A stretch of 64,000 nt of DNA, from assembly GCA_018261905.1 (NCBI GenBank), contig JAGTRU010000007.1:1-64000 (forward strand), written 5' to 3'. The translations under genes and the position numbers were made by a program. Source of the stretch: Pseudomonadota bacterium. GTDB taxonomy: Bacteria > Pseudomonadota > Gammaproteobacteria > Burkholderiales > Rhodocyclaceae. Position 1 is the first letter of the stretch. Each line of letters starts with the position of its first letter. The notes beneath the pieces are model-generated. The model saw only the letters and a list, made by a program, of their open reading frames with translations, made no database searches and was not told where the DNA came from. This document shows positions 15,490 through 36,235 of this stretch, in pieces.

Positions 15490-15606
15490 CCTGGCCTTTT
15501 CGCCAACGCCCGCAGGGCGCCCCTGCGACAATTTGCCACATTCCCAAGGCGGCCCACCGAACAGAGAATGCCCGGTTTAAAAAATAAACCATTCAGGGGA
15601 ATCTCG

Positions 15607-20707: not shown

Positions 20708-21046
20708 ATGATCCCTACTCCCGACTACGCCAGCAACCAGCCCGAGCGCGCCGCAATCGACGCCCTGGCCGGGCCGACCCTGCTTGAATTCGGTGCCGAT
20801 TGGTGCGGCCATTGCCAGGCGGCGCAGCAACCATTGGCCGAGGCCCTGGCCGGAGCGCTCACCATTCGTCACCTGAAAATCGAGGACGGTCCCGGCCGGC
20901 CGCTCGGCCGATCTTTTCGCGTCAAGCTGTGGCCGACCTTGATCTTTCTTCAGGATGGCCGGGAAATCGCTCGTCTGGTCCGGCCGACGGCCGCGCCGGA
21001 AATTGCCGAAGCGCTGGCCAAACTCGCCAGCCAAGCCGGCGGCTAA
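20708..21046 (+). CDS. Thioredoxin-family protein
   Basis: A 112-residue thioredoxin fold with the active-site motif WCGHC (residues 32-36) in EFGADWCGHCQAA and the cis-proline region LWPTLIFLQDG. Classical thioredoxin has WCGPC; the WCGHC form is more oxidising and PDI-like. No signal peptide, so cytoplasmic. It follows pssA by 39 bp, and its stop overlaps that of the convergent aminopeptidase gene. Confidence 0.85.
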   Translation: MIPTPDYASNQPERAAIDALAGPTLLEFGADWCGHCQAAQQPLAEALAGALTIRHLKIEDGPGRPLGRSFRVKLWPTLIFLQDGREIARLVRPTAAPEIAEALAKLASQAGG

Positions 21047-21984
21047 GCTTCCACCGCTTCCGCCACCCAACCCAGGGCCTTGATGCAGGCGCTGGCGATC
21101 GGCGTAGATAAACCGCCGTGACCGGCGCCGGCCACCGGCATCCAGATCGCTTCCGGCCAGGCATTGTGCAGTTGCTTGGCAATCTGCGGCGGGCAGACCG
21201 GGTCGGCCATGCCTTGCACGATGCTGGTCGGGATGTGGCGCAGGCGGTCGATACCGGCCAGTAACTGGCCGGGCGCCAGGAAACAGTGATGCACCAGGTA
21301 ATGCAACTGGATGCGCGCCTTGGCCAGGTGCACGGCGTCGGGCGGCGCGGCCAGCGGCGCCTCGCCCATCAGGGCCCGCTCGTAATCGAGCCAGGCGCGG
21401 GCGGCGGTGGTGGCGACCGCGGGATCGTCGGCCAGGATGCGGGCGGCGTAGGCCGCCAGCAGGTCGTCGCGCTCGGCCACCGGCAGGGCGCCGGCAAATG
21501 CCCGCCAGGCTTTCGGCACGGCGCCATGACTGCCCTGCACGTAGGCCCGGACTTCTTCCGGCGTGCCGAGGAAAATGCCGCGCAACACCAGGCCGAGCAC
21601 GTTTTCCGGGTAGCTCTGGGCATAGGCCAGGGCCAGCAGACTGCCCCAGGAGCCGCCGAAAACGATCCAGGCGGAAATGCCGAGGGCTTGGCGCAGGTAT
21701 TCCAGATCGGCCACCAGGTGTGCCGTGGTATTCGCTTCGATACTGCCGAGCGGCTGGCTGCGGCCGCAGCCGCGCTGGTCGAACAATACCGCGTGGAAAC
21801 GCTGCGGATCGAATAGCCGACGCTGGGTAGCCGAGCAGCCGCTGCCCGGGCCGCCGTGCAGGAAAAGCACCGGCAGGCCGTGTTCGGCGGCGCATTCTTC
21901 GACGTAGACGACGTGGCCATCGCCGACATTCATCTGCCGGGCATAGCGGGGCTGGCTGACGGGAAACAAGGGATCGACTGGCAA
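21043..21984 (-). CDS. pip: Prolyl aminopeptidase (alpha/beta hydrolase)
   Basis: A 313-residue enzyme with the proline iminopeptidase landmarks HGGPGSG (oxyanion-hole region), DQRGCGRS, the nucleophile elbow GGSWGS, and a C-terminal catalytic His in GAGHGG. It removes N-terminal proline from peptides. The start is a TTG directly abutting the TGA of the upstream response regulator; homology supports this start because the N-terminus aligns with the family from MPVDPLFP. It is the last gene of the SoxYZ-like/TonB/receptor/kinase operon, where a link to PQQ or metal uptake is not obvious. Confidence 0.85.
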   Translation of the reverse strand: MPVDPLFPVSQPRYARQMNVGDGHVVYVEECAAEHGLPVLFLHGGPGSGCSATQRRLFDPQRFHAVLFDQRGCGRSQPLGSIEANTTAHLVADLEYLRQALGISAWIVFGGSWGSLLALAYAQSYPENVLGLVLRGIFLGTPEEVRAYVQGSHGAVPKAWRAFAGALPVAERDDLLAAYAARILADDPAVATTAARAWLDYERALMGEAPLAAPPDAVHLAKARIQLHYLVHHCFLAPGQLLAGIDRLRHIPTSIVQGMADPVCPPQIAKQLHNAWPEAIWMPVAGAGHGGLSTPIASACIKALGWVAEAVEA

Positions 21985-22638
21985 TCAGGCCTCGATCAGG
22001 CCGTTGCGCACGGCGACCAGCGCCAGTTCCGCGGAGTTCTGGACATTGAGCTTCTGCTTGATGTTGTAGAGATGGGTGCCGACCGTGCTCGGGCTGAGGC
22101 AGAAATCACCGGCCACTTCGTTCACCGAGCGCCCTTCGGCGAGCTTGATGAACACCGCGAGTTCGCGCTCGCTCAGGGTTTCCAGCGGATTGCTCGAGCC
22201 CGACAACTGGCCGAGTGCCACCGCCGCCGCCAGTTCCGGATCGAGATAGCGGCGGTTGCCGGCAACCTGGCCGACGGCACGCAGGAACTCTTCCGGCGCT
22301 GCCCGCTTGCACAGGTAGCCGAGCGCCCCCAGACGCAAGGCACGCACCGGCACGATATCGTCGTGGTGCGCCGAGAGCATCAGCACGCGGGCCTTGCCAT
22401 CCCAGGCGATCAGGCGCTCGAGGGCGACCAGACCGCCGATGCCGGGCATCGAGACATCCATCACCACCAGCGTCGGCGCCGGTACCAGTTCGGCATAGCG
22501 CTGGACGGCCCGCTCGCCGTTCTCGGCCTCACCGACCACCGTCGCGCCGGCCCCTTCGAGGAGCAGGCGAAAACCGAGGCGGACGACGGCGTGGTCATCG
22601 GCCAGCAAGACCCGGATGCCTTGCAGATCATGGTTCAT
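21985..22638 (-). CDS. NarL/FixJ-family response regulator
   Basis: A 217-residue regulator: receiver domain with phospho-acceptor Asp61 (VVMDVSMPG) and acidic pair at residues 14-15 (LLADDH), then a LuxR-type HTH with LSERELAVFIKLAEG and CLSPSTVGTHLYNIKQKL. The ATG at 22638 overlaps the kinase stop (ATGA). It is the output partner of the histidine kinase upstream and, being in an operon with a TonB receptor and quinoprotein accessory genes, probably controls alcohol dehydrogenase or uptake genes. Regulators of this class act in the exaE/pedR2/agmR-type control of quinoprotein genes. Confidence 0.88.
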   Translation of the reverse strand: MNHDLQGIRVLLADDHAVVRLGFRLLLEGAGATVVGEAENGERAVQRYAELVPAPTLVVMDVSMPGIGGLVALERLIAWDGKARVLMLSAHHDDIVPVRALRLGALGYLCKRAAPEEFLRAVGQVAGNRRYLDPELAAAVALGQLSGSSNPLETLSERELAVFIKLAEGRSVNEVAGDFCLSPSTVGTHLYNIKQKLNVQNSAELALVAVRNGLIEA

Positions 22639-24026
22639 GGTTCTTCCTCCAAAATAATGGCGGCGACCGGTTCGGGGAAACCGGCGCGCAGCCGAAAACC
22701 GCCGGCGGCCGGCGATTCGCGTTGCAAATAGCCACCCAAGACGGCCAGCCGTTCGGTCATACCCTGCAAACCGAGGCCGCAGCCGGCCTGCGGCGATGCG
22801 TGGCAGTGCTGGCCGTGCCCGTTGTCGGCCAGGGAAATTTCCCACTCGCCGTCGTGCCGGAGGATTTTCAGATCGACCCGGCTGGCCGCGGCATGGCGAA
22901 CGACATTGGTCAGCCCTTCCTGCACGATGCGGAGCACCGTCTGCCCCCGGACATCGCCCGCCACCTGGTCGCCGCAACGCAGTTCCACGGCCAGTTCGAT
23001 TTCCTCGTGCTGCCGGCGCCAGGCGGCGAGTTGCCGCTCAAGCGCGGTTTGCAGGCTACCGGCGGCCGGCGGCCGCAGACGGAGCAGGATATTCTTGACG
23101 CCGTCCTGCATCTCGCCGGTCACCGCAACGATGCTTTGGGCGTGGCTGTGCAGCGCCGGCTGCTCACCGGTGCGCTGGACGATGGCGCCGGCCAGGGCGC
23201 GCACGGCGGTGATGCCCTGGGCCAGTTCGTCGTGCAGTTCGCGGGCAATGCCGCGCCGCTCGGCTTCGAGCCGGCCCTGCAGACAGCGCGCCAGTTCCTG
23301 TTCGGTTTCCAGGCGCACGTTGTCATTGACCGCTTCCGTCAGGCGGTCGGCCATGCCGTTGAAGGCGCGCGACAGGCGGCCGAGTTCCGGCGTCGCAAAA
23401 ACCGGCAAACGGGTGTCGAAACGCCCGGAACCAGTCCGGTCGAGCGCCGTCATGACCTGTTCCAGCGGGCGCAGGGCGCGGTCCAGGGCGCGCCGGCTGA
23501 CGACAAAAATCACCGCGAGCAGGGCCAACGCCCAGCCGGCCATGGCCAGCAGATCGTCCCAGGCGTCGATCACCGAGCGCGAGGCATCGGGGTAAAGCAC
23601 CAGTTGCAGCTCGCCGACCACCAGGTGGCGCGGCGCGAATTCCGGCGTCAGCAAGCCGGCGAACCAGTCCGGCACGCGGCGCCCGGCCTTGTAGCTCGGC
23701 GGCGGCGAACGGTAGAGCCGGCGGCCATCGGCGGCGAGCACTTCGAGCGCATTGGCGCGGATTCGGCCGAGCGGCTGGACGACCGCCAGCAGGCGCCCCG
23801 GCAGCGCATCCGGCGGCACGCCCTGCAACTCGCCGGCCAGGGCCTGCAGCCACTGCACCGAGACCCGGTTCGCCGCTTCAACTTCCTCGTGGATGGCGTT
23901 GCGCGACCCGTGCAGCCACAAGCCGGCGAGGACCAGCAGCAGACTGGCGGCCAGGCCGGTGAACACCAGGCCGACGCGGGTATGCAGGTTGAGACGTTCG
24001 CGGCTCGGCAGCAGTTGGCGCATCAT
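22635..24026 (-). CDS. Sensor histidine kinase, NarX/HisKA_3 type
   Basis: A 463-residue membrane kinase: first membrane helix near residues 18-40, a periplasmic domain of about 115 residues, second helix near 160-180, HAMP, then the HisKA_3 phospho-acceptor box ARELHDELAQ (His near 265) and an ATPase domain with EGLTNVVRHA and GLGLQGMTERL. The periplasmic part has no recognised fold. It overlaps the receptor gene before it and the regulator after it by 4 bp each, so it is part of one translationally coupled unit. The signal may be an alcohol or a metal such as a lanthanide; that is inference from context. Confidence 0.88.
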   Translation of the reverse strand: MMRQLLPSRERLNLHTRVGLVFTGLAASLLLVLAGLWLHGSRNAIHEEVEAANRVSVQWLQALAGELQGVPPDALPGRLLAVVQPLGRIRANALEVLAADGRRLYRSPPPSYKAGRRVPDWFAGLLTPEFAPRHLVVGELQLVLYPDASRSVIDAWDDLLAMAGWALALLAVIFVVSRRALDRALRPLEQVMTALDRTGSGRFDTRLPVFATPELGRLSRAFNGMADRLTEAVNDNVRLETEQELARCLQGRLEAERRGIARELHDELAQGITAVRALAGAIVQRTGEQPALHSHAQSIVAVTGEMQDGVKNILLRLRPPAAGSLQTALERQLAAWRRQHEEIELAVELRCGDQVAGDVRGQTVLRIVQEGLTNVVRHAAASRVDLKILRHDGEWEISLADNGHGQHCHASPQAGCGLGLQGMTERLAVLGGYLQRESPAAGGFRLRAGFPEPVAAIILEEEP

Positions 24027-26332
24027 TTGCCGCCGAACACGTAACGCACGCCGAGCCAGGCAGCGCGCGGCGCACCGGGCGCGACGAAGGTTTCCCGGCG
24101 CCAGGTGCCGGAATCGTTCTGAAAACTGCCATCGGCCGCAAAGGGATTTTCGGCGAGCGCGGCGGCCGTCGCGTAGCGCTTGTCGAACACGTTGTTCACC
24201 TTGGCGAATAGCTGCCAGCCACCGCCCAGCTTCGCCTCGGCATTGAGATTCAGGATGGCGTAGCCGGGCAGCTTGCCGGCGCCCTCGAAGGTCCGCCCGC
24301 CGAAGGTCCCGGCCTGGTGCTGGTTGTTTTCATTGCCGCGCGCGTACTGGCTGGAGAAGGCCTGGACATCGCCGCCCAGGCGCAGCCAGTCGGCGGCCTT
24401 CCAGGACAGGCCGAGTTTCAGGCTGTGGGCCGGCAAACCGGGCAGGCGGTTGCCCTTCTTGACGTAGATTTCGTCATCCTGACCGCCCGCCGTGCATTCC
24501 GGCGCCGTGCCGCGCGTGCTGTTGTTGGCGCCGAGCAGGCAGGCCGCCGACTGGAAAGTAGCGTGCAGGTAGCTGTAATTGGCAAACCAGTCGACGCGGC
24601 GCTGGCTGCCGCGCAGGCCGAGTTCGATGCCCTGGCGCAGGGTCTTGCCGAAATTGGTGAAATAGCCGGCGCTGGTCGAGGTGCCGACAAACAGGATGTC
24701 GTCCGACGACTGCGTGCGATAGACCCCGGCATTCCACTCGAGGTTGCCGGCCAGCTTGCCGCGCAGGCCGGCCTCGACGGTGCGCGCGATGACCTGTTTC
24801 AGGTAGGGATCGGCGGCCATGGCATTGGGCAGGGTGCAGGGGTTGGCCGGGTCGGCACAGCCCAGCTCGATCGGTGTCGGCACGCGGTTGCCCTGGCTGA
24901 AACCGGCATAGGCATTGAGCGCCGGCAGGGCCTGCCAGGTCAGGCCAAGCGCCGGATTCAGGCTGCGATAGCTGTGCTGGCCGTCGAGATTGGGCGCCGT
25001 GCGGTTGAGTTCGTCGAAGGTCGTGACGCGGCTCATGTTGTAGCGGGCAGCGGCCGTCAGGTGCAATTTGTCGCTCAGGGCAATGGTGTCGGTCACGTAG
25101 AGGCTGGTCGTACGCGTCGTGCCGTGCAGGCGGTTTTCCTCGGTGGCCGGCTGCAATTGCGAAACGCCGCGCGTCGCGTCGATCACGCCGATTTCCTGGG
25201 TCTGCGTGAAATGCATGCGGGCATGATCGAAGGAGGCGCCGATGGCCAGTTGCTGCCGCCCCGTGCTCAGGTTCCACTGGCCGGAAAAGCCGTTGCCCTG
25301 CTGCGTCGTGCGCGTCCGGTTGTTGGCGCCGGATTCGTCGTTCGAGAGGCCATCGAAGGGGCCATCCTCAAACTCGTCGTTCATGTCGCCGTTCAGCGTG
25401 CGTGTCTTGCTGCGCCGATGGTAGATGTTGCCCGACAGGCTCTGCGTGTCGCTGAGCCAGAGGCGGCCGTTGAGCGCCAGCTGGGTAAGGTCGTTGCGCG
25501 TCTGGTCGGGGTGGGTGAATATCTGGTCGCGGCGGGCGGCGTACATCGACTCGGGCAACAGGCCGTTGCCGGTCATTTTGGTCACGGCGCGACTCAGCGT
25601 CAGGTCGGCCTCACCGCTGGCGCTCTTGTGCGACAGCTTGGCGAACAACTGCTTGGCGTCGGATTTGGAGTAATCGCGCCAGCCGTCCTCACGGAACCAG
25701 TCGGCGGCGACATACCAGGCCCAGGTGCCGTTATTGCCGCCATGTTCGAGCTCAAGATTGCTGCGTCCGAAACTACCGCCGGACAGCTCGAACTTGCTGC
25801 CGGGATGGCTGAAGCCGCTCTTGGTGCGGATGGCCAGTGCGCCGCCCAGGGTGTTCAGGCCGAACACCGGGTTGGAGCCGGGAATCAGGTCCATGCCGGC
25901 AATCGCCGAATGCGGCAGGAGATCCCAATTGACCGTATCGCCGAACGGCTCGTTGATGCGCACGCCGTCGAGGTAGACCGACATGCCCTGGGCCGTGCCG
26001 AGCAGCGGCGAAGCCGTGAAACCGCGGTAATTGAGGTCGGCCTGGAAGGGATTGCCCTGGACTTCGTTGAGATTGACGCTGGGCAGTTGGCGGGCCATGA
26101 ATTCCGGCAGGTTCAGGCTTTCCTGTTCTTCGAGCTGCTCGCCGCTCACCGTCTGGACATTGGCCGGCATCTGCAGGCGCGCCACGCCGACGCCGGCGAG
26201 CGGCGTGTTGCCGATGATTTCGATGGTTTCGGCCTGGATCACCGGCTCGGCGGCCAGCACCGGGGAAAAAGCCGGGGCAAAGGCGGCGGCGACGGCCAGG
26301 GCGAGCAAACTGCGTTGCGGGTTGTGTCTCAT
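24023..26332 (-). CDS. TonB-dependent receptor of the quinoprotein island
   Basis: A 769-residue outer-membrane receptor with signal peptide (LALAVAAAFAPAFSPVLAAE), plug with VQTVSGEQLEEQESLNLPEFMARQ, VNLNEVQGNPFQADLNYRGF and IPGSNPVFGLNTLGGALAIRTKSG, and a barrel ending in VRYVFGGK. It is encoded between its own TonB (4 bp overlap) and a two-component system (4 bp overlap), in an operon divergent from the lanthanide-type PQQ dehydrogenase. TonB receptors near lanthanide-dependent dehydrogenases in methylotrophs (LutH, LanA) import lanthanides, probably as chelates. That role is proposed here by context only. Alternatives are PQQ or iron-chelate uptake. Confidence 0.9.
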   Translation of the reverse strand: MRHNPQRSLLALAVAAAFAPAFSPVLAAEPVIQAETIEIIGNTPLAGVGVARLQMPANVQTVSGEQLEEQESLNLPEFMARQLPSVNLNEVQGNPFQADLNYRGFTASPLLGTAQGMSVYLDGVRINEPFGDTVNWDLLPHSAIAGMDLIPGSNPVFGLNTLGGALAIRTKSGFSHPGSKFELSGGSFGRSNLELEHGGNNGTWAWYVAADWFREDGWRDYSKSDAKQLFAKLSHKSASGEADLTLSRAVTKMTGNGLLPESMYAARRDQIFTHPDQTRNDLTQLALNGRLWLSDTQSLSGNIYHRRSKTRTLNGDMNDEFEDGPFDGLSNDESGANNRTRTTQQGNGFSGQWNLSTGRQQLAIGASFDHARMHFTQTQEIGVIDATRGVSQLQPATEENRLHGTTRTTSLYVTDTIALSDKLHLTAAARYNMSRVTTFDELNRTAPNLDGQHSYRSLNPALGLTWQALPALNAYAGFSQGNRVPTPIELGCADPANPCTLPNAMAADPYLKQVIARTVEAGLRGKLAGNLEWNAGVYRTQSSDDILFVGTSTSAGYFTNFGKTLRQGIELGLRGSQRRVDWFANYSYLHATFQSAACLLGANNSTRGTAPECTAGGQDDEIYVKKGNRLPGLPAHSLKLGLSWKAADWLRLGGDVQAFSSQYARGNENNQHQAGTFGGRTFEGAGKLPGYAILNLNAEAKLGGGWQLFAKVNNVFDKRYATAAALAENPFAADGSFQNDSGTWRRETFVAPGAPRAAWLGVRYVFGGK

Positions 26333-27063
26333 GTTGATTTTTTTAATTTGTAATTGATCGGCACGACGACCTGGATTTCATTGGCCTCCAGCGCCTCGGG
26401 CAGCGGCGGCAGGCTGGCCAGGGCTTCGAGCATGGCCACGGCGTGCTGGTCGAGCACGGCAAAGCCGCTCGACTGATCGAGCTGCACGCCAAGCAGATTG
26501 CCCTTCCTGGCGACCCGCAGGCGCAGGCGGACTTCGCCCTCCCAGCCGCGCAGCGCGGCGATACGGGGATATTCCTGCTGGCCGGCGAGCAAGGCGGTCA
26601 GGCGCTGACGGTAGGCGGCCAGCACGTCGCCCAGGGGTCGGGCCGGTGCCGTGTCCGGCGCGGCGACGGGAACAGGCGAAGCGGCGGAAACTGGCACCGC
26701 AAGCGCTGCTTCGCCCGGCGCTACGCGGCTGGCGGCGACTTCGGCAGCAACCGGGGCCACGGCAATGGTCGGCCCGGCCGCCCCGTTCATCCGGGGAGCC
26801 AAGGGGTGCTCCGCGAACGATGGGGACGGCCGAGCCTTCTCGGGGACGGCAGCCGGCGCCACCTGGCGGGGCGTCTCGGCTGCCGGTCCGGCATGCGGTG
26901 AAACTTCGGGGGCCAGCGCGTAGCGCAGCGTTGCAACGATGGTCAGCGGCAGCACGGGCCGCGCTTGGCGCTGCCATGAAAGCGCGGCGAAGATCAGCCC
27001 ATGGAGGACCAGCGACAGGCCGCAGATCCAGGCCAAACGGCGATCCGGTGCGTAAGCCATCAT
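26329..27063 (-). CDS. tonB: Energy transducer TonB
   Basis: A 244-residue TonB-like protein: N-terminal membrane anchor (AWICGLSLVLHGLIFAAL, residues about 12-29), a long Pro/Ala/Val-rich periplasmic spacer (about 50-150), and a C-terminal TonB domain containing YPRIAALRGWEGEV and a stretch like LDQSSGFAVLDQHAVAML. It would transmit proton-motive force from ExbBD to the receptor encoded immediately downstream. No exbB or exbD is nearby, so it must use those encoded elsewhere. Overlaps of 4 bp on both sides suggest fixed stoichiometric expression with the receptor. Confidence 0.88.
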   Translation of the reverse strand: MMAYAPDRRLAWICGLSLVLHGLIFAALSWQRQARPVLPLTIVATLRYALAPEVSPHAGPAAETPRQVAPAAVPEKARPSPSFAEHPLAPRMNGAAGPTIAVAPVAAEVAASRVAPGEAALAVPVSAASPVPVAAPDTAPARPLGDVLAAYRQRLTALLAGQQEYPRIAALRGWEGEVRLRLRVARKGNLLGVQLDQSSGFAVLDQHAVAMLEALASLPPLPEALEANEIQVVVPINYKLKKST

Positions 27064-27989
27064 TTCAGCGCCGCCTGCTCGGCGGCCGGGAACAGGTGGC
27101 CGACCGAGCGCCGGTACTCACTGGCCGCCACCGGCAGGTCGGCGAATTCGGGCGGCAGCGGCCGGGCCAGCACTTCGTTCATGTCCAGCCCGGCCTCGGC
27201 GGCCTGGTGCAGGCTTTCCCGCAGCCAGGTGAGCCACGCCCGCGTCTGACGGATCGGCGCCGCATCGGGCGTCGGCGCGCCATGCCCGGGCACCAGCGTC
27301 GTGAAGCCGGGCCGCCGGGTCAACGCCTCAAGCTGATCAAGGGCGGTCAGCCAGTGGCCGATGTCGGCATGCGGCGTGGTCGGCGCGCGCCCATTGAAGA
27401 CCAGGTCCCCGGCAAAGAGCACGCCGCTGGCGCTGTCGTAGATGGCCAGATCGGCCCCGGTATGGCCGTCGAGGGCGATCAGTTCGAGCTGCCGGCCGGC
27501 CACGGCGAGCGGCCCGGCGGCCAGCGCCTGCGTCGGGACGAGGACTTCGGTGCCGAGCAGCCAGTCGCCACTCAGGCGGAAGAGATTTTCGGCGAAGGCA
27601 TTACCATCGGCGGCGATACCCCGGATGGTGCTCGGCAGGGCGGCGATCGGCAACCCGGAAAAAGCCTGGTTGCCGAGAAAATGATCGGGATGGTGATGGG
27701 TATTGATGAGCAGCACCGGCGGCCGCGGCGTCACGGCGGCGATGGCCTGGCGCATCTGCTGGCCGTAGCGCAGCGAAGGGCCGCTGTCGATGACGATGAC
27801 GCCCTGCGCCGCGACGATGAAGCCGGTATTGACGATATTGCCGCCGTTGGCCGTAGTGAAGTCCTCGCTGCGGCCGATGAAGACATGAACATCCGGCGCC
27901 ACCGGCCGGGCGCTCAGACCGTAATCGAAGCCGGCCGCCTGCACCGCCCCGGCCAGCCACAACGCGCAGCACAGGAAGCGGCGTTTCAC
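27060..27989 (-). CDS. Quinoprotein relay system metallo-beta-lactamase-fold hydrolase
   Basis: A 309-residue exported protein (signal sequence FLCCALWLAGAVQA) with the metallo-beta-lactamase zinc motif HHHPDH (in LLINTHHHPDHFLGN), a distal Asp in VLFAGDLVFNG, and His in LVPGHG. It fits the protein family annotated as quinoprotein relay system zinc metallohydrolase 1, which is found only with PQQ dehydrogenases and SoxYZ-like carriers. Substrate unknown; a thioester or thiol adduct on the SoxYZ-like carrier is a reasonable guess from Sox chemistry. The GTG start at 27989 overlaps the previous stop (GTGA). Confidence 0.82.
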   Translation of the reverse strand: MKRRFLCCALWLAGAVQAAGFDYGLSARPVAPDVHVFIGRSEDFTTANGGNIVNTGFIVAAQGVIVIDSGPSLRYGQQMRQAIAAVTPRPPVLLINTHHHPDHFLGNQAFSGLPIAALPSTIRGIAADGNAFAENLFRLSGDWLLGTEVLVPTQALAAGPLAVAGRQLELIALDGHTGADLAIYDSASGVLFAGDLVFNGRAPTTPHADIGHWLTALDQLEALTRRPGFTTLVPGHGAPTPDAAPIRQTRAWLTWLRESLHQAAEAGLDMNEVLARPLPPEFADLPVAASEYRRSVGHLFPAAEQAALK

Positions 27990-28756
27990 GGGGCGATCCG
28001 GGCCTGAAAGAGGTTGCCGTTGTTGTCGCGACCGCGCGCTTCGATCGGCCCGGCCAGCGCGCCACGCTGCAGAGTAAAGACCGGGTTTTCCGCCACCGGC
28101 TCGTAGGTCTGCAGGCGCATCAGGGGTTGCCCGGCAGCATCGGCGAAAGCGATTTCCTCCAGGTAAAATGCCGGCGTTCCAGCCACCAGGCCGGTGTCCA
28201 TGGGATGCACGATGCGCAGCCGGAGGCGGCCGCTGGCCGGCCCTTCCGACCACTGGCGACCGCTCACTTCATTGAGCCGCTGCTGCCATTCGGGCGAGCT
28301 GGCGGCAGCGGAAGGCGCCGTGCAGCCACCGCCCACCGTATTGACCCAGGTGCCGCCGACATGCCACAGCCCGTCGGCGGTGCGTACCGCGGCGCGGACC
28401 GGGGTCGATTGCTGCAGCTTGACGCGAAAGCCGAGGTAGGCGCCGCTGCCGGCCGGGTAGAAACGCAGGACCTGGACGATCGGATTGAAATCGGCAAAGA
28501 CGATCACTTCCCGAACATTGGACAGCGCCGTGGCATCGACCGTGACCGGCACCTGCAGAGGATTCTCGGCGGTAGACGGGGCGCTGACCTTGACCCGCGG
28601 ATCGAAGAGCACCTGCTGACCGGCCAGGAAGGCCTTCTGCATCTCCCCCCAGCGCGCCGAAGCCAGCGGATCGCCGCTTTCCTGCAGGGCCGCCGCATCG
28701 GCCGGCGGCATCAGCGCCGCCAGTGCAATGGCGGCCATGGTCAAAGGAAATTTCAT
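27986..28756 (-). CDS. Quinoprotein dehydrogenase-associated SoxYZ-like carrier
   Basis: A 256-residue exported protein (signal TMAAIALAALMPPADAAA). It combines a SoxY-like part, with the cysteine in VGGGCTAPSA recalling the SoxY GGCG swinging-arm tail, and a SoxZ-like immunoglobulin fold with LRIVHPMDTG. SoxYZ carries sulfur intermediates in thiosulfate oxidation; this fused version is known only next to PQQ dehydrogenases and its cargo is unknown. GAGGAG precedes the start. It is the first gene of the operon running down to pip, behind a sigma-54 promoter match at 28802. Confidence 0.85.
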   Translation of the reverse strand: MKFPLTMAAIALAALMPPADAAALQESGDPLASARWGEMQKAFLAGQQVLFDPRVKVSAPSTAENPLQVPVTVDATALSNVREVIVFADFNPIVQVLRFYPAGSGAYLGFRVKLQQSTPVRAAVRTADGLWHVGGTWVNTVGGGCTAPSAAASSPEWQQRLNEVSGRQWSEGPASGRLRLRIVHPMDTGLVAGTPAFYLEEIAFADAAGQPLMRLQTYEPVAENPVFTLQRGALAGPIEARGRDNNGNLFQARIAP

Positions 28757-28801
28757 CGGTTCGTTCTCCTCTTGCCCTGGCGGGCGGTTGGCGAAAACGG
28801 T

Positions 28802-28817
28802 CGCAAGCCCCGTGCCA
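28802..28817 (-). promoter_or_regulatory. Sigma-54 promoter of the SoxYZ-like/TonB/receptor operon
   Basis: On the minus strand the sequence reads TGGCAC-GGGGC-TTGCG, matching the -24/-12 consensus TGGCAC-N5-TTGC. The -12 element lies about 47 bp before the start codon at 28756. The paired match on the other strand at 29010 and the dyad halfway between them strengthen the call. Confidence 0.7.
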
Positions 28818-28902
28818 AAGCGGCAAACAGGCTTGGCGAGGCGTTTTCGCCCGCGTCAGGGGGGCCGTGCAGCACTGCGGTTGCGCAACTTTGGAGCACC
28901 TG

Positions 28903-28922
28903 TGTTCATTTGCAGCAGAACA
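28903..28922. promoter_or_regulatory. Candidate activator site between two divergent sigma-54 promoters
   Basis: TGTTC-N10-GAACA is a perfect inverted repeat, 86 bp from the minus-strand sigma-54 element and 88 bp from the plus-strand one. An inverted near-copy pair GAGCAC/GTGTTC lies at 28894-28907, and short palindromes GTGCAGCAC (28867) and GTTGCGCAAC (28880) are nearby. Bound enhancer proteins typically act from this distance. The rest of the 397-bp region 28757-29153 shows no gene. Confidence 0.5.
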
Positions 28923-29009
28923 GCGGCCACTCCGCCGGCCGCGGCCAAATTTGCCCAAAAGCGCGGCGCGGCCCGACGGCAGGCCGCCGGCGGGGCGAAT
29001 TGCCCGACA

Positions 29010-29025
29010 TGGCACAGGCCTTGCA
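29010..29025 (+). promoter_or_regulatory. Sigma-54 promoter of the lanthanide-type PQQ dehydrogenase
   Basis: TGGCAC-AGGCC-TTGCA is an exact match to the -24/-12 consensus, 129 bp upstream of the ATG at 29154. It differs only in the spacer from the element before pedF at 46894. Confidence 0.75.
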
Positions 29026-29153
29026 GACCGCCTTTCTCGCCAGGGGTCGCTTCAGGGAAAGGAAGCCGGCCCCCGGCTTTCATTCCGCCCCGGACGCCGA
29101 CGAGCGACGCTGGCCCCGACCCCGGAACCAATGGATAACCTAGGAGACAATCC

Positions 29154-30941
29154 ATGCACCAACACAACAATCATCTCCGGCAGCGCGCGCTCAGCATCGC
29201 GCTCCTTGCCGCCGCGGTCATGGCCGGTAATCCGGCCCTGGCCAAGGACGTCACCGATGCCGACATCCTCAACGACGCCAAGAGCACCGGCGACGTCGTC
29301 AGCTTCGGCCTCGGCACCCAGGGCCAGCGTTTCAGCCCGGCCACCCAGATCAATGCCAAGACCGTGAAGAACCTGGTCCCGGCCTGGTCGATGTCCTTCG
29401 GCGGCGAGAAGCAGCGTGGCCAGGAGTCGCAGCCGGTGATATCCGACGGCAAGATGTTCGTCACAGCCTCCTACAGCCGCCTGTTCGCCGTCGATGCGAA
29501 GACCGGCAAGAAATTGTGGAAGTACGAACACCGCCTGCCCGACGGCATCATGCCCTGTTGTGACGTGATCAACCGCGGCGCCGCGCTGTACGGCAACGTG
29601 GTCATTTTCGCGACGCTCGATGCCCAACTCGTCGCCCTCAACCGCGACACCGGCAAGGTCGTCTGGAAGGAAAAGATCGGCGACTACGCCGCCGGCTATT
29701 CCGCCACAGCCGCCCCGATCATCGCCCGCGGCAAGCTGATCACCGGCATTTCCGGCGGCGAATTCGGCGCTGTCGGCCGCATCGACGCGCGCGATCCGCT
29801 GACCGGCAAGCTCGTCTGGACGCGCCCGACCGTCGAAGGCCACATGGGCTATCGCTACGAGAACGGCAAGGAAGTCGAAAACGGCATTTCCGGCACGACC
29901 AACGCCACCTGGGAAGGTGACCTGTGGAAGACCGGCGGCGCCGCCACCTGGAATGGCGCCACCTACGACCCGGAAACCAACCTGATCTTCGCCGGCACCG
30001 GCAACCCGGCCCCGTGGAACAGCCACCTGCGCCCGGGCGACAACCTGTTCTCGTCCTCCACCGTCGCCATCGACGCCGACACCGGCAAGATCGCCTGGCA
30101 CTACCAGAACACCCCGCACGACGGCTGGGACTTTGACGGTGTGAACGAATTCGTTTCCTTCGACTACAAGGATCCGAAGAGCGGCAAGATCGTCAAGGCT
30201 GGCGGCAAGGCCGACCGCAACGGCTTCTTCTACGTTAATGACCGGACCAACGGCAAGCTGCTCAACGCCTTCCCCTTCGTGAACAAGATCACCTGGGCCA
30301 AGAGCATCAACCTCGAAACCGGCCGTCCGAACTACATCGAAGAAGGCCGCCCTGGCGACCCGACGCAAGGTGTAGACGGCAAGAAGGGCAAGGTCGTCTT
30401 CTCGGCTCCGTCCTTCCTCGGCGGCAAGAACCAGATGCAGATGGCCTACAACCCGGGCACCGGCCTGTTCTACGTGCCCTCGAACGAGTGGTCGATGGAC
30501 ATCTGGAATGAACCGGTGTCGTACAAGAAGGGTGCCGCCTACCTCGGCGCCGGCTTCACCATCAAGGCCCTGAACGACGACTACATCGGCTCGCTGCGCG
30601 CCATGGACCCGCAGACCGGCAAGATGGTCTGGGAAAACAAGAACTACGCTCCGCTCTGGGGCGGCGTCCTGACCACCGCTGGCGGACTGGTCTTCTACGG
30701 TACGCCGGAAGGCTTCCTGAAGGCGCTCGATGCCAAGACGGGCAAGGAACTGTGGTCCTTCCAGACCGGTACCGGCATCGTTGCACCGCCGGTCACCTGG
30801 GAACAGGATGGCGAACAGATGATCGCCGTGACCACCGGCTGGGGCGGCGCCGTGCCGCTCTGGGGCGGCGACGTCGCCAAGCGCGTGAATTACCTCGAAC
30901 AGGGTGGTTCCGTCTGGGTGTTCAAGCTGCACAAGGGCTAA
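29154..30941 (+). CDS. PQQ-dependent alcohol dehydrogenase, lanthanide-type signature (PedH/ExaF-like)
   Basis: A 595-residue periplasmic quinoprotein: signal peptide (residues 1-30, ending NPALA), eight-bladed propeller with repeated W-docking motifs, and the vicinal disulfide Cys135-Cys136 (MPCCDV) that stacks on PQQ. The catalytic Asp326 lies in GWDFDG; the residue two further on is Asp328. An Asp there provides the extra carboxylate ligand of lanthanide-dependent enzymes (XoxF, ExaF, PedH), whereas calcium enzymes have Ala, Ser or Thr. It oxidises primary alcohols to aldehydes and passes electrons to a c-type cytochrome. AGGAGA precedes the start. A sigma-54 promoter match lies upstream and a hairpin terminator downstream. 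Metal use is inferred from residue 328. Confidence 0.9.
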
Positions 30942-30980
30942 GTTTTGCCATCTAGCGCGGGGGCAGACGCCCCCGCCGAC

Positions 30981-31016
30981 AACGGCGTACCGGCGCAAGC
31001 GGGTACGCCGTTTTTG
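30981..31016 (+). terminator. Terminator of the lanthanide-type dehydrogenase
   Basis: An 11-bp perfect stem (AACGGCGTACC / GGTACGCCGTT) with a ten-base loop followed by T residues. A second GC-rich hairpin (GCGGGGGC / GCCCCCGC) lies just before it at about 30957-30977. Confidence 0.75.
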
Positions 31017-31045
31017 CGTGCTGGCGAGGCGTCGACCGCTAGCGC

Positions 31046-31507
31046 TCACTCGTGCCCCCGGCTCGCCTGCGCCTCGATGAAGGTCTGGATGGCCCAGGCC
31101 AGTTCCTGTTTGAGCACGCCTTGCCAGGGCGGCATGTGGGTGACGCCGACGATGACCTTGCCGTAGCGCACCGACTTGGCGAACCAGGCGTCGTTGTCGC
31201 GCAGGCAGGCAGCGTTCAGCTCGACGTCGTCGATCCGCCGGCAGTAGCGGTTGATCTGGCGCAGATCGGGGGCCGGTGCCGCATTGGTCGCCGCATCGGC
31301 GCCGTGGCAGCGGGCGCAGGCCTGGTTGTAGGCGGCCCGCCCGACGCTGACGGCGGCCGGCTGGCCGCGGTAGGGATTGGCCTCGAGCCAGGTTTCGTCG
31401 AGCGGCGCCAGACCGTCTGGCGCGACATCGGGGGCGACGGCGACTTCGCCGGCATGGACGGCAGCACTGAACAGCACCGCACAAAACAGGGGGAAAAGTT
31501 TGCGCAT
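31046..31507 (-). CDS. c-type cytochrome, PedF/c550-like
   Basis: A 153-residue monohaem cytochrome with a signal peptide (RKLFPLFCAVLFSAAVHA), haem site CARCH at residues 64-68, and a distal methionine in THMPPWQG. The spacing NPYRG...AYNQACARCHG is shared with the PedF protein at 46417, the dedicated electron acceptor family of PQQ alcohol dehydrogenases. It is the last gene of the operon calcium-type dehydrogenase, pentapeptide protein, cytochrome, and would carry electrons from the dehydrogenase towards the terminal oxidase. It has two extra cysteines (residues about 90-105) not present in the PedF copy. Confidence 0.85.
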   Translation of the reverse strand: MRKLFPLFCAVLFSAAVHAGEVAVAPDVAPDGLAPLDETWLEANPYRGQPAAVSVGRAAYNQACARCHGADAATNAAPAPDLRQINRYCRRIDDVELNAACLRDNDAWFAKSVRYGKVIVGVTHMPPWQGVLKQELAWAIQTFIEAQASRGHE

Positions 31508-31512
31508 GGATC

Positions 31513-32082
31513 TCACCAGTCGGTCGGACAGGCGCGGCAGCCTGTGAAATCGGCATCCTGGAATACCGTGTAGCGGCGGTAGCTGCCGGAAAGATCGGCA
31601 CCCTGGAAGTTGACCGTAAAGAACTTGCTCTCCTGCAGGTTGGTGTCGACCAGGCGGGCGCCGATGAACCAGGCGAAATTGGCCTTGGCCGCCTCGAGGT
31701 TGGCGCCGCTCAGGTCGGCATTGGAGAAATCGGTCCGGAAGAGGCGGGCGAATTCGAGATCGGCCCCGACCAGGCGGGCGCCGCGAAAGGTTGCGGTCGG
31801 CGCACTGACCTTGTTGAGACGGGCCGCCGTCAGGTCGGCGCCGTCGAGATTGGCGCCGGCCAGGTTGGCGCCGCGCAGATCGGCACGCGCCAGTTGCGCA
31901 CCGCGCAGGTCGGCCCCGGCCAGGTTCTTGCCGGCCAGGTTGGCGTGGCGCAGGTCGGCCCCGGCACAACGGGTATGCGGCCAGATGCCGCAACCGTTGA
32001 TGACTGTCGGCACCAAGGGCTCGGCGGCCTGGCTAGCGGTCGACACGAAAAAAAGGGCAAAAATCAGCGAACGCAAAGTCAT
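31513..32082 (-). CDS. Exported pentapeptide-repeat protein
   Basis: A 189-residue protein with a signal peptide (LIFALFFVSTASQAAE), a short cysteine-containing segment (NGCGIWPHTRCAG), then about 20 tandem A(D/N)LxX repeats that should form a right-handed beta-helix, and a C-terminal tail with CRAC. ATG 32082 is preferred, since the 16-residue upstream extension would bury the signal peptide. It sits between the calcium-type dehydrogenase and a PedF-like cytochrome, 5 bp from the latter. A role as docking scaffold or assembly factor is possible, but nothing in the sequence proves it. Confidence 0.85.
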   Translation of the reverse strand: MTLRSLIFALFFVSTASQAAEPLVPTVINGCGIWPHTRCAGADLRHANLAGKNLAGADLRGAQLARADLRGANLAGANLDGADLTAARLNKVSAPTATFRGARLVGADLEFARLFRTDFSNADLSGANLEAAKANFAWFIGARLVDTNLQESKFFTVNFQGADLSGSYRRYTVFQDADFTGCRACPTDW

Positions 32083-32206
32083 TGCAGAATCATCCATTGC
32101 CGGCCAGGCCCCCGACCCGACCGCCGACACCCCATGCCGGTGCCGGCGGCCATCGCCAACTGCCGAAGGGAGACGGCAGCTGGTTGGGCCGGAAGACTGC
32201 GCCGTG

Positions 32207-34078
32207 CTAGCGCTTGAGCGATTTAGGCAGCTTGAAGACCCACATCGAGCCGCCCTGCGTCACCTGCTTGGTCAGGTCGGCCAGGTCGCCGCCCCAGAGC
32301 GGCACGGCGCCGCCGTAACCGGACTGGATGCCGATGAACTGCTCGCCATCCATTTCCCAGGTGATCGGCACCGAAACCACGCCGGAGCCGGTCTGGAACT
32401 TCCACAGTTCCTTGCCGTTTTTCGCATCGAAGGCCTTGACGTAGCCGTCCGAGGTACCGGTGAACACGAGGCCGCCGGCGGTGGTCATGGTGCCGGCCCA
32501 GAGCGGGAATTTCTCCTTGTGCTCCCAGGCGATCTTGCCGGTCTTCGGGTCCAGCGCGCGCAGCGTGCCGACGTGGTCATCGAACAGCTTCTTGATGCGG
32601 AAACCCTGACCAAGGTAGGCCGAGCCGGCCTTGTAGGTCAGCTTTTCAGTCCAGTAGTCCATCGCCCAGTGGTTGGCGGGAATGTAGAACAGCTCGGTCT
32701 GCGGGCTGTAGCTCATCGGCATCCAGTTGGTGCCGCCCAGGAAGGGCGGCGAGACGAACACCGAGTCGCCCTTTTCGGCGCCGTCCTTGGGCAGCGGCGG
32801 CCGGTTGCCCTTCTCGATCGGCCGGCCGGTCTTGAGATCGAAACCGGAAGCCCAGGTAATGCCTTCGACAAACGGCCAGGCACCGATCAGCGCCGTCGGC
32901 TTGTTCGGGTAGCCGGCACCGCTGGTCAGCTTCTCGCGGTCGGTGACGAAGAAGAAGCCGTTGCGGTCGGCGTGCGCCGAGGCCTTGACCGGCTTGCCGG
33001 TCTTCGGATCCTTGTATTCGAAGAGCACGACCGAGTTGTTGCCGGAGAAGTCCCAGGCATCGTTCGGGGTGTGCTGGAAGAAGCCCTTCAACTCGCCGGT
33101 GCTGGCGTCGACATAGGCCTGGCCGGAGGTGAACAGGCTGTCCCAGTTGCGCGGATCGTCGCCTTCCTTGGTGCGGTGCCAGGTGTTCCACGGGGCCGGA
33201 TTGCCGGCGCCGATCACCACCATGTTCTTTTCGACGTCATAGCTGGCCGTCTGCCAGGGCGCGCCGCCGCCGTGATTCCAGGCGTCGACCAGCTTGCCCT
33301 CCTTGTCGCGCGGCCAGGACGGCGCTTCCTTGTCGCCGGTCGGGGTCGATTCCTTGCCGTTCAGGCGGCCCATGTGGCCTTCGACCATCGGTCGTGCCCA
33401 GACTTCCTCGCCGGTATCCGGATCGCGTGCGAACAACCAGCCGACGACGCCGAACTCGTCACCCGACGAACCATGCACCAGCAGCACCTTGCCGCTCTTC
33501 TCGTCCTTGACCACGAAGGGCGCGCCGGTCATCGTGTAGCCGACCTTGTGGTCGCCGAACTTCTTGCGCCAGGCGACCTTGCCGGTGTCCTTGTCGAGCG
33601 CGACGATGGCCGCGTCGAGCGTGCCGAAGTAGATCTTGTTGCCGTAGATGGCGGCGCCGCGATTGACCACGTCGCAGCACGGACGAATGTCGTCGGGCAG
33701 GCGGGCTTCATATTCCCAGAGACGTTTGCCGGTACGGGCGTCGATCGCGAAGATGCGCGAATACGACGCGGTGACGTAGATCACGCCGTCGTGCACCAGC
33801 GCCTGCGCTTCCTGGCCACGCTGCTTTTCGCCGCCGAAGGAGAAGCTCCAGGCCGGCACCAGGTGCTCGACGTTTTTGGTATTGACCTTGCTCAGCGGGC
33901 TGAAGCGCTGTGCCTTGAGGCCGAGGCCGTAGGACAGCACATCGCCGGTCGTCTTGTCGTCATTAAGGATGTCTTCCCAAGTGACATTGCTGCCGACGGC
34001 GCTGGCCGGAGCACCGAAAGTCGCAGCGACCAGCGCGGCAAGCAGAGCCTGACGGGGATTGAACCGGGTTGATTTCAT
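32207..34078 (-). CDS. exaA: PQQ-dependent alcohol dehydrogenase, calcium-type signature (ExaA/PedE-like)
   Basis: A 623-residue periplasmic quinoprotein with signal peptide (residues 1-28), the PQQ-stacking disulfide Cys134-Cys135 (RPCCDV), metal ligands in SSGDEFG and GNPAPWN, and the catalytic Asp343 in AWDFSG. The residue two on is Ser345, as in calcium-dependent ExaA/PedE, not Asp. The protein is about 28 residues longer than the lanthanide-type copy and carries an insertion near residues 245-270. It would oxidise ethanol and other primary alcohols. It starts an operon with the pentapeptide protein and a cytochrome, and is divergent from a histidine kinase gene that probably regulates it. 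Confidence 0.9.
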   Translation of the reverse strand: MKSTRFNPRQALLAALVAATFGAPASAVGSNVTWEDILNDDKTTGDVLSYGLGLKAQRFSPLSKVNTKNVEHLVPAWSFSFGGEKQRGQEAQALVHDGVIYVTASYSRIFAIDARTGKRLWEYEARLPDDIRPCCDVVNRGAAIYGNKIYFGTLDAAIVALDKDTGKVAWRKKFGDHKVGYTMTGAPFVVKDEKSGKVLLVHGSSGDEFGVVGWLFARDPDTGEEVWARPMVEGHMGRLNGKESTPTGDKEAPSWPRDKEGKLVDAWNHGGGAPWQTASYDVEKNMVVIGAGNPAPWNTWHRTKEGDDPRNWDSLFTSGQAYVDASTGELKGFFQHTPNDAWDFSGNNSVVLFEYKDPKTGKPVKASAHADRNGFFFVTDREKLTSGAGYPNKPTALIGAWPFVEGITWASGFDLKTGRPIEKGNRPPLPKDGAEKGDSVFVSPPFLGGTNWMPMSYSPQTELFYIPANHWAMDYWTEKLTYKAGSAYLGQGFRIKKLFDDHVGTLRALDPKTGKIAWEHKEKFPLWAGTMTTAGGLVFTGTSDGYVKAFDAKNGKELWKFQTGSGVVSVPITWEMDGEQFIGIQSGYGGAVPLWGGDLADLTKQVTQGGSMWVFKLPKSLKR

Positions 34079-34283: not shown

Positions 34284-35591
34284 ATGGATCTCAGAAAGCG
34301 GCTGGTCGGTCATCTTGGGGCGCTGCTTGGCGGCCTGATGCTGGTCGCCCTACTGGTCAATCTGTATTCGCTGCGCCAAGACATTGATACCGAGGTTGGC
34401 GCTTCGGAACGCCTGGTTGATGTCCTGCTCGCCGCCGGCCAGCTAGCGCCCGGACTGCCGCCGACCGTGGCAGCGCAACACCTGCACGCCATTGTCGAGG
34501 GCCGCAATTTGCGCCACCTGAACATCAGTCCGGATGCCAGTACCGCGCCAGCCGGCCCGACGCTCAGCACCCGGCTGGCCAATTGGCTCGGTGTCGAATC
34601 GACCGCCCAGGCCGGCCAATTGATCCGTCTCGGCGAGCACAGCCTGCGTATCGCCCCCAATCCGGCCTCGGAAATCGAGGAACGCCTGGGCGACACTGTT
34701 CGACTTTGTATCACCCTGTTGTTCTTTTCTGGAGCAACCCTGCTCGTCGCCTGGCGTGCCGCCGACCGGGCGCTGGCCCCGGTACGCGAACTGGAAGCCG
34801 GCCTGCAACGCCTGGCCAGGGGCGACAGCCAAGCCACCCTGCCGCCCTTCGCCTTGCGCGAATTCCGCCGGGTGGCCGCCGCCATCGACCAGTTGGCGAC
34901 CGCATTGAGCGACTCCCAGGCCGCCCGCCGCCAGCTTTCGCAACAATTGATCGAGATCCAGGAAGACGAGCGCCGGACACTGGCAAGGGAATTGCATGAC
35001 GAGATGGGGCAAACACTGACCGCCATCGGCGTGACCGCTGCCTACCTTGAGCGCCATGCCGGCCAACTCGCCGCCGGACAGATCGTCGAATGTGCCGGCG
35101 ACCTGCGGCGCGATGTGAAGACCAGTGGCGAACAGTTGCGCGCCATGCTCCGTCAGCTACGCCCGCACGGTCTGGATGCCACGGCCCTGGCCAGCGCCTT
35201 GCGGGAGTTGGTCGGCAGTTGGCAGCAGCGCACGGCGGAGATCGAGTTCAGTCTGGCCCTGCCGGGCGGTTTGCCGGTGATGGGCGAGACGGCGGGGCTG
35301 GTGCTTTACCGCGTTGTGCAGGAGGCATTGACCAATGTCGTCCGGCACAGCGGGGCGCGGCACTGCCGGGTCAGTATCGAGGTCGCGGCACAAACGCTGC
35401 AGCTCAGCGTGCAGGACGATGGCCAGGGCTTGCCGGCGACGGGCCCGGCCCGGCGTGGCGGCCTGCTGGGAATGGAAGAACGGCTGGCCATGGCAGGCGG
35501 CAGCCTGACGGTGGACAGTGGGCCGAACGGCCTGCATTTGCAGGTCAGCCTGCCGCTGAAGCGAGAAGAACAACCGGAGGAACACGCATGA
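34284..35591 (+). CDS. Sensor histidine kinase of the quinoprotein island
   Basis: A 435-residue kinase with one N-terminal membrane helix (LGALLGGLMLVALLVNLYSL), a periplasmic domain of about 110 residues, a second helix near 147-165, a HAMP domain, and a HisKA_3 core with ARELHDEMGQ (His near 238) and an ATPase domain with EALTNVVRHSGA and GLLGMEERL. It is divergent from the calcium-type dehydrogenase and overlaps its partner response regulator by 4 bp. By position it resembles PedS2/ExaD-type sensors that switch PQQ dehydrogenases. The specific signal is unknown. Its periplasmic domain differs from that of the other kinase of the island (22635-24026). Confidence 0.88.
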   Translation: MDLRKRLVGHLGALLGGLMLVALLVNLYSLRQDIDTEVGASERLVDVLLAAGQLAPGLPPTVAAQHLHAIVEGRNLRHLNISPDASTAPAGPTLSTRLANWLGVESTAQAGQLIRLGEHSLRIAPNPASEIEERLGDTVRLCITLLFFSGATLLVAWRAADRALAPVRELEAGLQRLARGDSQATLPPFALREFRRVAAAIDQLATALSDSQAARRQLSQQLIEIQEDERRTLARELHDEMGQTLTAIGVTAAYLERHAGQLAAGQIVECAGDLRRDVKTSGEQLRAMLRQLRPHGLDATALASALRELVGSWQQRTAEIEFSLALPGGLPVMGETAGLVLYRVVQEALTNVVRHSGARHCRVSIEVAAQTLQLSVQDDGQGLPATGPARRGGLLGMEERLAMAGGSLTVDSGPNGLHLQVSLPLKREEQPEEHA

Positions 35592-36235
35592 TCCGCATTA
35601 TTCTGGTCGATGACCACGCTGTCGTCAGAACCGGCTACCGCCGCCTGCTCGACGCCGAACCCGGCCTGCAGGTGGTCGGCGAAGCCGCCAGCGCCGACGA
35701 GGCCAACGCCCTGGCCTTGCGCAGCGCCGCCGATGTCGCGCTGGTCGATCTCAGCCTGCGCGGCAGCAGCGGCATCGAGGCGATCCGCGGCATGCTGGCG
35801 CGCCAGCCGGAGCTGAAAATCCTCGTCCTCTCCATGCACGAAGGCGCCGGCCACGTCACCCAGGCCCTGCGCAGCGGCGCCCGCGGCTACCTAACCAAAT
35901 ATTGCGAACCGGGCGACGTGATCGACGGCATTCGCCGGGTTGCCGCCGGCAAGCGCGTCTTCTCGCCGGAAATCGCCCTGGTCCTGGCCGAGGAAGCGGC
36001 GGCCGGCGACGGCGCCCTGGCCCACCTGACGCCACGCGAATTCGAGGTACTGCGCATGCTGGCACACGGCGAATCGGCCAATGGCATCGCCAGTTCGATG
36101 CACCTCAGCCAGAAGACGGTGCTCAACTACCTCACCCTGATCCGGCAGAAGCTCAATGCCGACAACGATTTCAAACTGCTCCACCTGGCGGCCCGGCATG
36201 GCCTGGTGGACATGAGCCATGCCATCAATGCCTGA
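35588..36235 (+). CDS. LuxR-type response regulator (AgmR/PedR2-like)
   Basis: A 215-residue regulator with receiver Asp54 (ALVDLSLRGSSG) and a C-terminal LuxR HTH (LTPREFEVLRMLAHGES, then HLSQKTVLNYLTLIRQKL). Regulators of this class control PQQ alcohol dehydrogenases in pseudomonads. It follows the kinase gene with ATGA overlap. Candidate targets are the divergent calcium-type dehydrogenase operon with its dyads at 34181-34221, and the Cache protein gene 36 bp downstream. Confidence 0.9.
   Translation: MIRIILVDDHAVVRTGYRRLLDAEPGLQVVGEAASADEANALALRSAADVALVDLSLRGSSGIEAIRGMLARQPELKILVLSMHEGAGHVTQALRSGARGYLTKYCEPGDVIDGIRRVAAGKRVFSPEIALVLAEEAAAGDGALAHLTPREFEVLRMLAHGESANGIASSMHLSQKTVLNYLTLIRQKLNADNDFKLLHLAARHGLVDMSHAINA

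Follow-up and report, generated by a model that had tools for sequence, protein, structure and literature searches.

A ped-type cluster with its own TonB-dependent receptor

We analysed the first 64,000 nt of a contig (G000:C33:1-64000, hereafter the window) from a source genome of 4.92 Mb that is 99.99% complete. The window carries a ped-type cluster, which has the genes of the Pseudomonas ped cluster and, in addition, a TonB gene and a TonB-dependent receptor gene. This receptor, a predicted importer of lanthanides or lanthanide chelates encoded at 24023..26332 on the minus strand, is the subject of the present analysis. The cluster comprises a PedH-like and an ExaA/PedE-like pyrroloquinoline quinone (PQQ) alcohol dehydrogenase, PedF, PedD, two histidine kinase/regulator pairs and a six-gene operon that includes the receptor gene.

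Both dehydrogenase genes are intact frames, and they are the only two genes of the source genome that exceed the cut-off of TIGR03075 (methanol/ethanol dehydrogenase). The protein encoded at 29154..30941 (plus strand, 778 bits) has at its metal site Asp328, the second residue past the conserved WD (WDFD). Its best solved matches are the chains 6zcv and 6zcw (868 and 867 bits), with WDFD aligned; their title reads only 'Quinoprotein ethanol dehydrogenase', and we take them to be PedH of Pseudomonas putida. The protein encoded at 32207..34078 (minus strand, 725 bits) carries Ser345 (WDFS) at the metal-site place, within TPNDAWDFSGNN, and its best solved match is 1flg (979 bits), with WDFS aligned. 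The best solved matches agree with both predicted metal calls, a PedH/ExaF-like lanthanide type and a PedE/ExaA-like calcium type. Direct reading of the two residues, together with the structure matches, confirmed the Asp-type/Ser-type pair claimed in a preliminary description of this DNA.

The receptor operon, on the minus strand, encodes in order a quinoprotein dehydrogenase-associated SoxYZ-like carrier (27986..28756; TIGR04557, 216 bits, cut-off 140), the SoxH-like quinoprotein relay zinc metallohydrolase 1 (27060..27989; TIGR04558, 410 bits, cut-off 300), a TonB-family protein (26329..27063; TIGR01352/PF03544) as predicted energy coupler of the receptor, the receptor itself, histidine kinase 1 (22635..24026; HAMP and HisKA_3 domains) and LuxR-type response regulator 1 (21985..22638; PF00072 and PF00196). 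The 4-bp overlaps described earlier were found exactly at five junctions: SoxYZ/SoxH (27986-27989), SoxH/TonB (27060-27063), TonB/receptor (26329-26332), receptor/kinase (24023-24026) and kinase/regulator (22635-22638). The same order, with PedH divergent from the operon, was found again in four records named Dechloromonas or Azonexus (L039, L041, L042, L054) and in the relatives L040, L043, L044, L046 and L049, and because it recurs in this way the arrangement is not a product of chance.

The cluster further contains a PedF-like cytochrome c-550 (31046..31507, minus strand; TIGR04494, 105 bits, slightly below the family cut-off of 122), a PedD-like pentapeptide-repeat protein (31513..32082, minus strand; PF00805), and histidine kinase 2 (34284..35591) with LuxR-type response regulator 2 (35588..36235), both on the plus strand. 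Likely start positions are 27989 for the SoxH-like protein, 22638 and 35588 for regulators 1 and 2, 31507 for PedF and 32082 for PedD. PqqE of PQQ synthesis is encoded on contig C39 of the source genome (505 bits, above cut-off), and scans of the window for Rfam families (gathering threshold) and tRNAs gave no matches.

PedD is known from the Pseudomonas ped cluster (PMC12997753), and the cluster of P. putida KT2440 also shares with the window the PedH/PedE pair, PedF, the SoxYZ-like and SoxH-like proteins and kinase/LuxR regulator pairs (PMC12997753, PMC6839425). KT2440 has the ATP-binding cassette (ABC) importer PedA1A2BC and reportedly no LutH homologue, whereas the source genome has the receptor and its TonB and no such ATPase above cut-off.

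Receptor phylogeny and co-occurrence with Asp-type enzymes

The receptor has 769 residues with plug and barrel domains, and a phmmer search with it against the PDB gave no match at E 0.001. We placed it in two trees, a quick one with 109 receptors and a careful one with 41. In the quick tree it fell inside a clade of 89 rows (Shimodaira-Hasegawa approximate likelihood-ratio test, SH-aLRT, 100), with FecA and FhuA outside. The careful tree placed it in a 30-row clade (bootstrap 100, SH-aLRT 99) in which seven rows are Methylobacterium-type and others come from Sphingobium, Novosphingobium, Methylophilaceae, Variovorax, Rhizobacter and further groups; PqqU of Escherichia coli and Rahnella, BtuB, CirA and a receptor beside MbnP/MbnM genes lay outside it, and PqqU-like receptors formed a clade of their own (100/100). 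The quick tree divided the receptors in the same way.

The Methylobacterium anchor of this clade is a receptor on plasmid pMNOD02 of Methylobacterium nodulans (34.8% identity, E 7e-115 to the window receptor). One regulator gene separates it from a lanmodulin homologue, which was found with a query that we take to be the lanmodulin sequence. A lanmodulin-like match on pCMU01 of M. extorquens CM4 had no annotated receptor nearby. In Methylorubrum extorquens AM1, lutH (META1p1785) and lanM (META1p1786) are neighbours by number (PMC7391723), and we infer that the M. nodulans anchor, placed without META1p1785 itself in the comparison, is LutH or a close paralogue. The window receptor resembles LutH of the lut cluster (PMC7391723) as a TonB receptor of the lanmodulin-associated clade that accompanies lanthanide-type PQQ dehydrogenases; it differs in lying with PedH in a ped cluster, in having its own TonB and in a genome with no lut-type ABC ATPase above cut-off. 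On Sphingobium and Novosphingobium plasmids a relative of the receptor adjoins SoxH, SoxYZ, PedF and an Asp-type dehydrogenase. Outside Pseudomonadota, a Desulfovibrionaceae metagenome-assembled genome (L114) holds a LutH-type receptor, a PqqU-like receptor and an Asp-type dehydrogenase in 22 kb, through either transfer or a binning error.

The preliminary description had proposed a LutH-like functional analogue and had named grouping with siderophore or cobalamin receptors as the result that would speak against it. The trees gave no such grouping: BtuB, CirA, PqqU, FecA and FhuA all stand apart, and the position inside the clade of the lanmodulin-linked Methylobacterium receptor, together with the tracking of Asp-type enzymes reported below, goes further than the analogy first claimed. 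A role in the uptake of siderophores or of other chelated metals (iron, copper), only co-regulated with alcohol oxidation and with lanthanide use incidental, is unlikely given the receptor's separation from CirA, FecA and FhuA, its association with Asp-type enzymes and its joint absence with PedH from one genome (G130, below). Its best general family score is nevertheless to TonB-siderophore receptors (150 bits, below the cut-off of 223.5), and methylolanthanin-type receptors elsewhere cluster with iron receptors (PMC11996626).

We ran exact DNA patterns for the metal-site motif and the receptor search on the same genomes, a survey that the preliminary description had suggested, using a family sample of 150 genomes (receptor threshold E 1e-30) and an order sample of 389 genomes (E 1e-40). 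The receptor was present in 41 of 50 Asp-pattern genomes versus 7 of 100 others in the family sample, and in 55 of 60 versus 25 of 329 in the order sample (Fisher p-values of 3e-41 and 9e-21, overstated since they ignore kinship). Because the Asp pattern is strict, we looked for dehydrogenases in the 32 genomes that have the receptor but not the pattern. All except one (31/32) have a PQQ dehydrogenase above cut-off, and the best dehydrogenase has Asp in 28 of the 30 read, the exceptions being G095 (Ser) and G022 (Pro); G095 has a cut-off PedH-like piece, its metal-site residue unread, on the same contig as the Ser-type enzyme. In genera mixed for the Asp pattern, Asp members had the receptor more often than the other members in 7 of 11 genera, with 4 ties, and in 4 of 9, with 5 ties; no genus in either set showed the reverse. 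A dehydrogenase is visible at 33 of 85 receptor loci, and these include an Asp type in 30 cases; L056 and L105 (Ser) and L068 (Ala) are the other three. Receptors of this clade are associated with Asp-type PQQ dehydrogenases by gene neighbourhood and by genome.

PQQ import, natural absences and the Ped/Lut importer

A PqqU-like TonB-dependent receptor gene at 13269..15374 (minus strand), which the preliminary description had overlooked, lies ~9 kb from the receptor gene and bears on whether the 24023..26332 receptor imports PQQ or a PQQ-metal complex, PQQ being the cofactor of both dehydrogenases. With NF041535, the PqqU model (strict cut-off 1200), the 13269..15374 gene scores 655 bits versus 109 bits for the receptor, and it falls within the PqqU clade, outside which the receptor lies. 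It is likely the PQQ importer of the source genome. The window thus has another candidate for PQQ import, and PQQ import was given up as the leading interpretation of the receptor once this separate gene had been found. PqqU-like receptors occur in 65 of the 150 family genomes and in 47 of 50 Asp genomes, and also in G109 and G130, which have no LutH-type receptor. Among the 65, the receptor is present in 38 of 47 Asp-pattern genomes versus 6 of 18 others.

Several observations nevertheless speak for PQQ import: the receptor occurs in 33 of 39 PqqE genomes of the family sample and lies <15 kb from pqqE in G142, G053, G090 and G121, and the solved fold nearest to its AlphaFold model (mean predicted local distance difference test, pLDDT, 76.8; predicted template modelling score, pTM, 0.80) is PqqU with PQQ (9c4o; template modelling score, TM, 0.73; 20% identity). 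PqqU (YncD) of E. coli is likewise a TonB-dependent receptor, and its family has receptors beside PQQ enzymes (Rahnella). It differs in belonging to a separate clade and in having neither the eight acidic residues and the Cys pair conserved in the receptor family nor its acid-rich loop (below). Linkage to PqqE as the driver of the distribution was rejected, since, of the 12 Asp genomes in the family sample that have no PqqE above cut-off, 8 retain the receptor, which therefore tracks the enzyme and not PQQ synthesis. These results make import of PQQ by the receptor an improbable explanation.

A Ser/Ala/Gly motif is the sole type that the strict patterns detect in five genomes: G095, G109 and G130 in the family sample, and G171 and G272 in the order sample. 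Three of them (G095, G171, G272) have the receptor, and in G171 and G272 an Asp enzyme was present on direct reading. G130 shares its genus code with G026 and G086, whose clusters contain PedE, PedD, PedF, PedH, SoxYZ, SoxH, the receptor, a kinase and a regulator. The G130 cluster has PedE, PedD, PedF, SoxYZ, SoxH, kinase and regulator in a row: PedH is missing between PedF and SoxYZ, and the receptor is missing between SoxH and the kinase. As the two places are separate, one deletion does not explain both absences. The continued presence of SoxYZ, SoxH, kinase and regulator also means that the operon, taken whole, is not specific to lanthanides, nor is its sensor bound to the receptor. The expectation that the operon would not occur in Ser-only genomes largely held for the receptor, absent from G109 and G130, joined by an Asp enzyme in G171 and G272 and by the PedH-like piece of unread residue in G095, and failed for the rest of the operon, present in G130.

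The preliminary description had also proposed a single lanthanide uptake-and-sensing unit, in which the kinase reads lanthanides brought in by the receptor. The 4-bp overlaps are in keeping with such a unit, as is the finding that 55 of 85 loci have a kinase or regulator gene no more than 2.5 kb from the receptor, and in P. putida PedS2/PedR2 is a lanthanide-responsive pair with PedS2 as the sensor (PMC6115532). A kinase/regulator pair of the same kind, however, follows SoxH without a receptor in G130 and G067, and such pairs also occur in the receptor-less G139 and G009. A sensor tied to the receptor was rejected on this basis, and the proposed unit is improbable; the two kinase/regulator pairs of the window are probably general regulators of the ped cluster and not parts of the receptor system. 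The private TonB is present in the window operon as described but is not general, there being no space for it between SoxH and the receptor in G026, G086 and L060, and it was rejected as a defining part. A TonB motif scan in relatives found no match even where TonB is known and is hence uninformative. In Sulfuritalea and a relative (L066, L069), a PqqU-like receptor lies by a kinase/regulator pair on one side of PedH and a LutH-type receptor on the other, and the two receptor types may swap places in the operon.

We took TIGR03864 as the Ped/Lut ABC ATPase family; its name (PQQ alcohol dehydrogenase system ATPase) and a PQQ-associated beta-propeller neighbour in G139 point to the PedB/LutE ATPase. 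The source genome has no match above cut-off (best 183 bits, cut-off 302), and by this measure it lacks the lut/PedA1A2BC importer. TIGR03864 was found in 5 of the 38 receptor-bearing Asp genomes tested (of 41) versus 6 of 9 Asp genomes without the receptor (Fisher 0.003), and in none of three tested genomes without the Asp pattern. One more of the nine has a TIGR03864 fragment, and among those remaining two assemblies reach a completeness of just 52% and 81%. The receptor and the ABC importer therefore tend to stand in for one another, and the distribution suggests that a periplasmic supply of lanthanide is all that the window lineage requires. PedA1A2BC is needed for growth at low La (PMC6839425). 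Asp-type enzymes occur here in genomes without this ABC ATPase above cut-off, although, according to PMC6839425, all strains reported up to that time to produce lanthanide-dependent PQQ enzymes had PedA1A2BC homologues. In such genomes the lanthanide needs of the periplasm would become separable from those of the cytoplasm.

The acid-rich loop and the proposed route for lanthanides

Nine positions of the receptor are acidic in at least 87% of 94 family members (E90, D99, D132, E215, D276, D316, D319, D415 and D508), and Cys492 and Cys499 are cysteines in at least 87%. None of 14 PqqU-like receptors has an acidic residue at any of these positions or either cysteine, save at D316 (21%). D99 and D276 are not conserved in the M. 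nodulans receptor. Of 11 loops, 315-333 has the highest acid content (25% of residues over the 94 members, with 2% basic), and it is predicted from strand alternation in the model to be extracellular; much of it, residues 317-332, has pLDDT <50.

A canonical EF-hand motif was found in this loop in four Methylophilaceae receptors of the tree set and nowhere else in 108 sequences scanned. When the 120 listed relatives that scored best with a Methylophilus receptor were scanned (P0242-P0361; those named are Methylophilus, Methylotenera or Methylophilaceae), 40 had it in the loop, versus chance rates of 0.55% in shuffled proteins and 0.26% in shuffled loops. Pfam EF-hand scores are below cut-off. 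Among 120 window-type and 120 Methylobacterium-type receptors none had the motif, and they instead have NGDxN[DE][DE] (91/120) or DGNDGxFE (88/120). EF-hands usually bind calcium and, in lanmodulin, lanthanides, and the loop motif is therefore a lead on the site and not proof of the metal. The EF-hand-bearing Methylophilaceae loci are L095, L096, L101 and L104, in which the motif follows an NGDxND motif.

Gene order, the Asp/Ser pair, clade membership and co-occurrence are established by the data, as are the absence of both PedH and the receptor from the G130 cluster and the lack of a Ped/Lut-type ABC ATPase above cut-off in the source genome. On the grounds that a relative lies near lanmodulin and that the family tracks rare-earth-type enzymes across hundreds of genomes, we consider that the LutH-type-clade receptor at 24023..26332 probably supplies the PedH-like enzyme encoded next to it by moving lanthanides, as ions or as a chelate, through the outer membrane. 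The acid-rich loop would be the capture site and the neighbouring TonB would power transport. As PedH works in the periplasm, lanthanide would then have to travel no further, and a dedicated importer into the cytoplasm would be unnecessary.

Several observations weigh against this interpretation. The receptor is missing in 9 of 50 (family) and 5 of 60 (order) Asp-pattern genomes, and the relatedness of the genomes inflates the p-values given above. At the Stutzerimonas locus L105 the sole enzyme seen is of Ser type and at L068 of Ala type, and G438 has a LutH-type relative (G438:C1:149462-151657, 40% identity) and no PQQ alcohol dehydrogenase at E 1e-60. Only G109 and G130 combine a Ser-only pattern with a missing receptor, their other dehydrogenases being judged by pattern alone. 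LutH was represented in the comparison by the lanmodulin-linked relative and by P0161, a protein named from M. extorquens, in place of META1p1785. The window receptor itself had no EF-hand on the motif scan, and its nearest solved fold is PqqU.

A broader proposal, that an unnamed LutH-type branch in Betaproteobacteria and beyond captures lanthanide ions directly on the acidic extracellular loop, which in many Methylophilaceae has an EF-hand, and hands them to PedH/XoxF in the periplasm, with neither a metallophore nor cytoplasmic import, replacing the Ped/Lut ABC transporter in many lineages, seems to us doubtful, and we offer it tentatively. Outer-membrane lanthanide entry in P. putida, the best-studied non-methylotroph here, is described as unresolved (PMC12997753), LutH-like receptors as widespread in methanotrophs (PMC12482762), and the discovery of divergent rare-earth receptors as limited by the few known ones (PMC11996626). 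LanA of Methylotuvimicrobium buryatense, likened to the window receptor by description only, is a lanthanide-switch TonB receptor and is <20% identical to M. extorquens receptors (PMC6839425). Our literature search, which covered few subscription papers, returned no account that pairs this receptor family with PedH in non-methylotrophs, and none that describes EF-hands in such receptors. The outcome is a candidate lanthanide receptor family, defined by sequence, with a candidate metal-binding loop; the PqqU-like receptor of the same window provides an internal control, and natural gene absences are also on hand.

The operon likely also includes the prolyl aminopeptidase gene 3' of regulator 1 (21043..21984, minus strand; TIGR01249, 282 bits, cut-off 260), which follows the regulator in relatives such as L039 and L042-L047. 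In other relatives (L172, L180) such a gene lies near PqqU-like or PqqE genes, and a role in PQQ peptide processing would be a guess. The third TonB-dependent receptor of the window (15568-17868, plus strand) shares ~50% identity with a receptor whose gene adjoins those of MbnP and MbnM in Ideonella dechloratans (L153) and is maybe related to copper or methanobactin. It is followed by a DUF6976 protein (18850-19842) and a thioredoxin-like protein (20708-21046), and the window also encodes a copper-type P-ATPase at 7126-9390.

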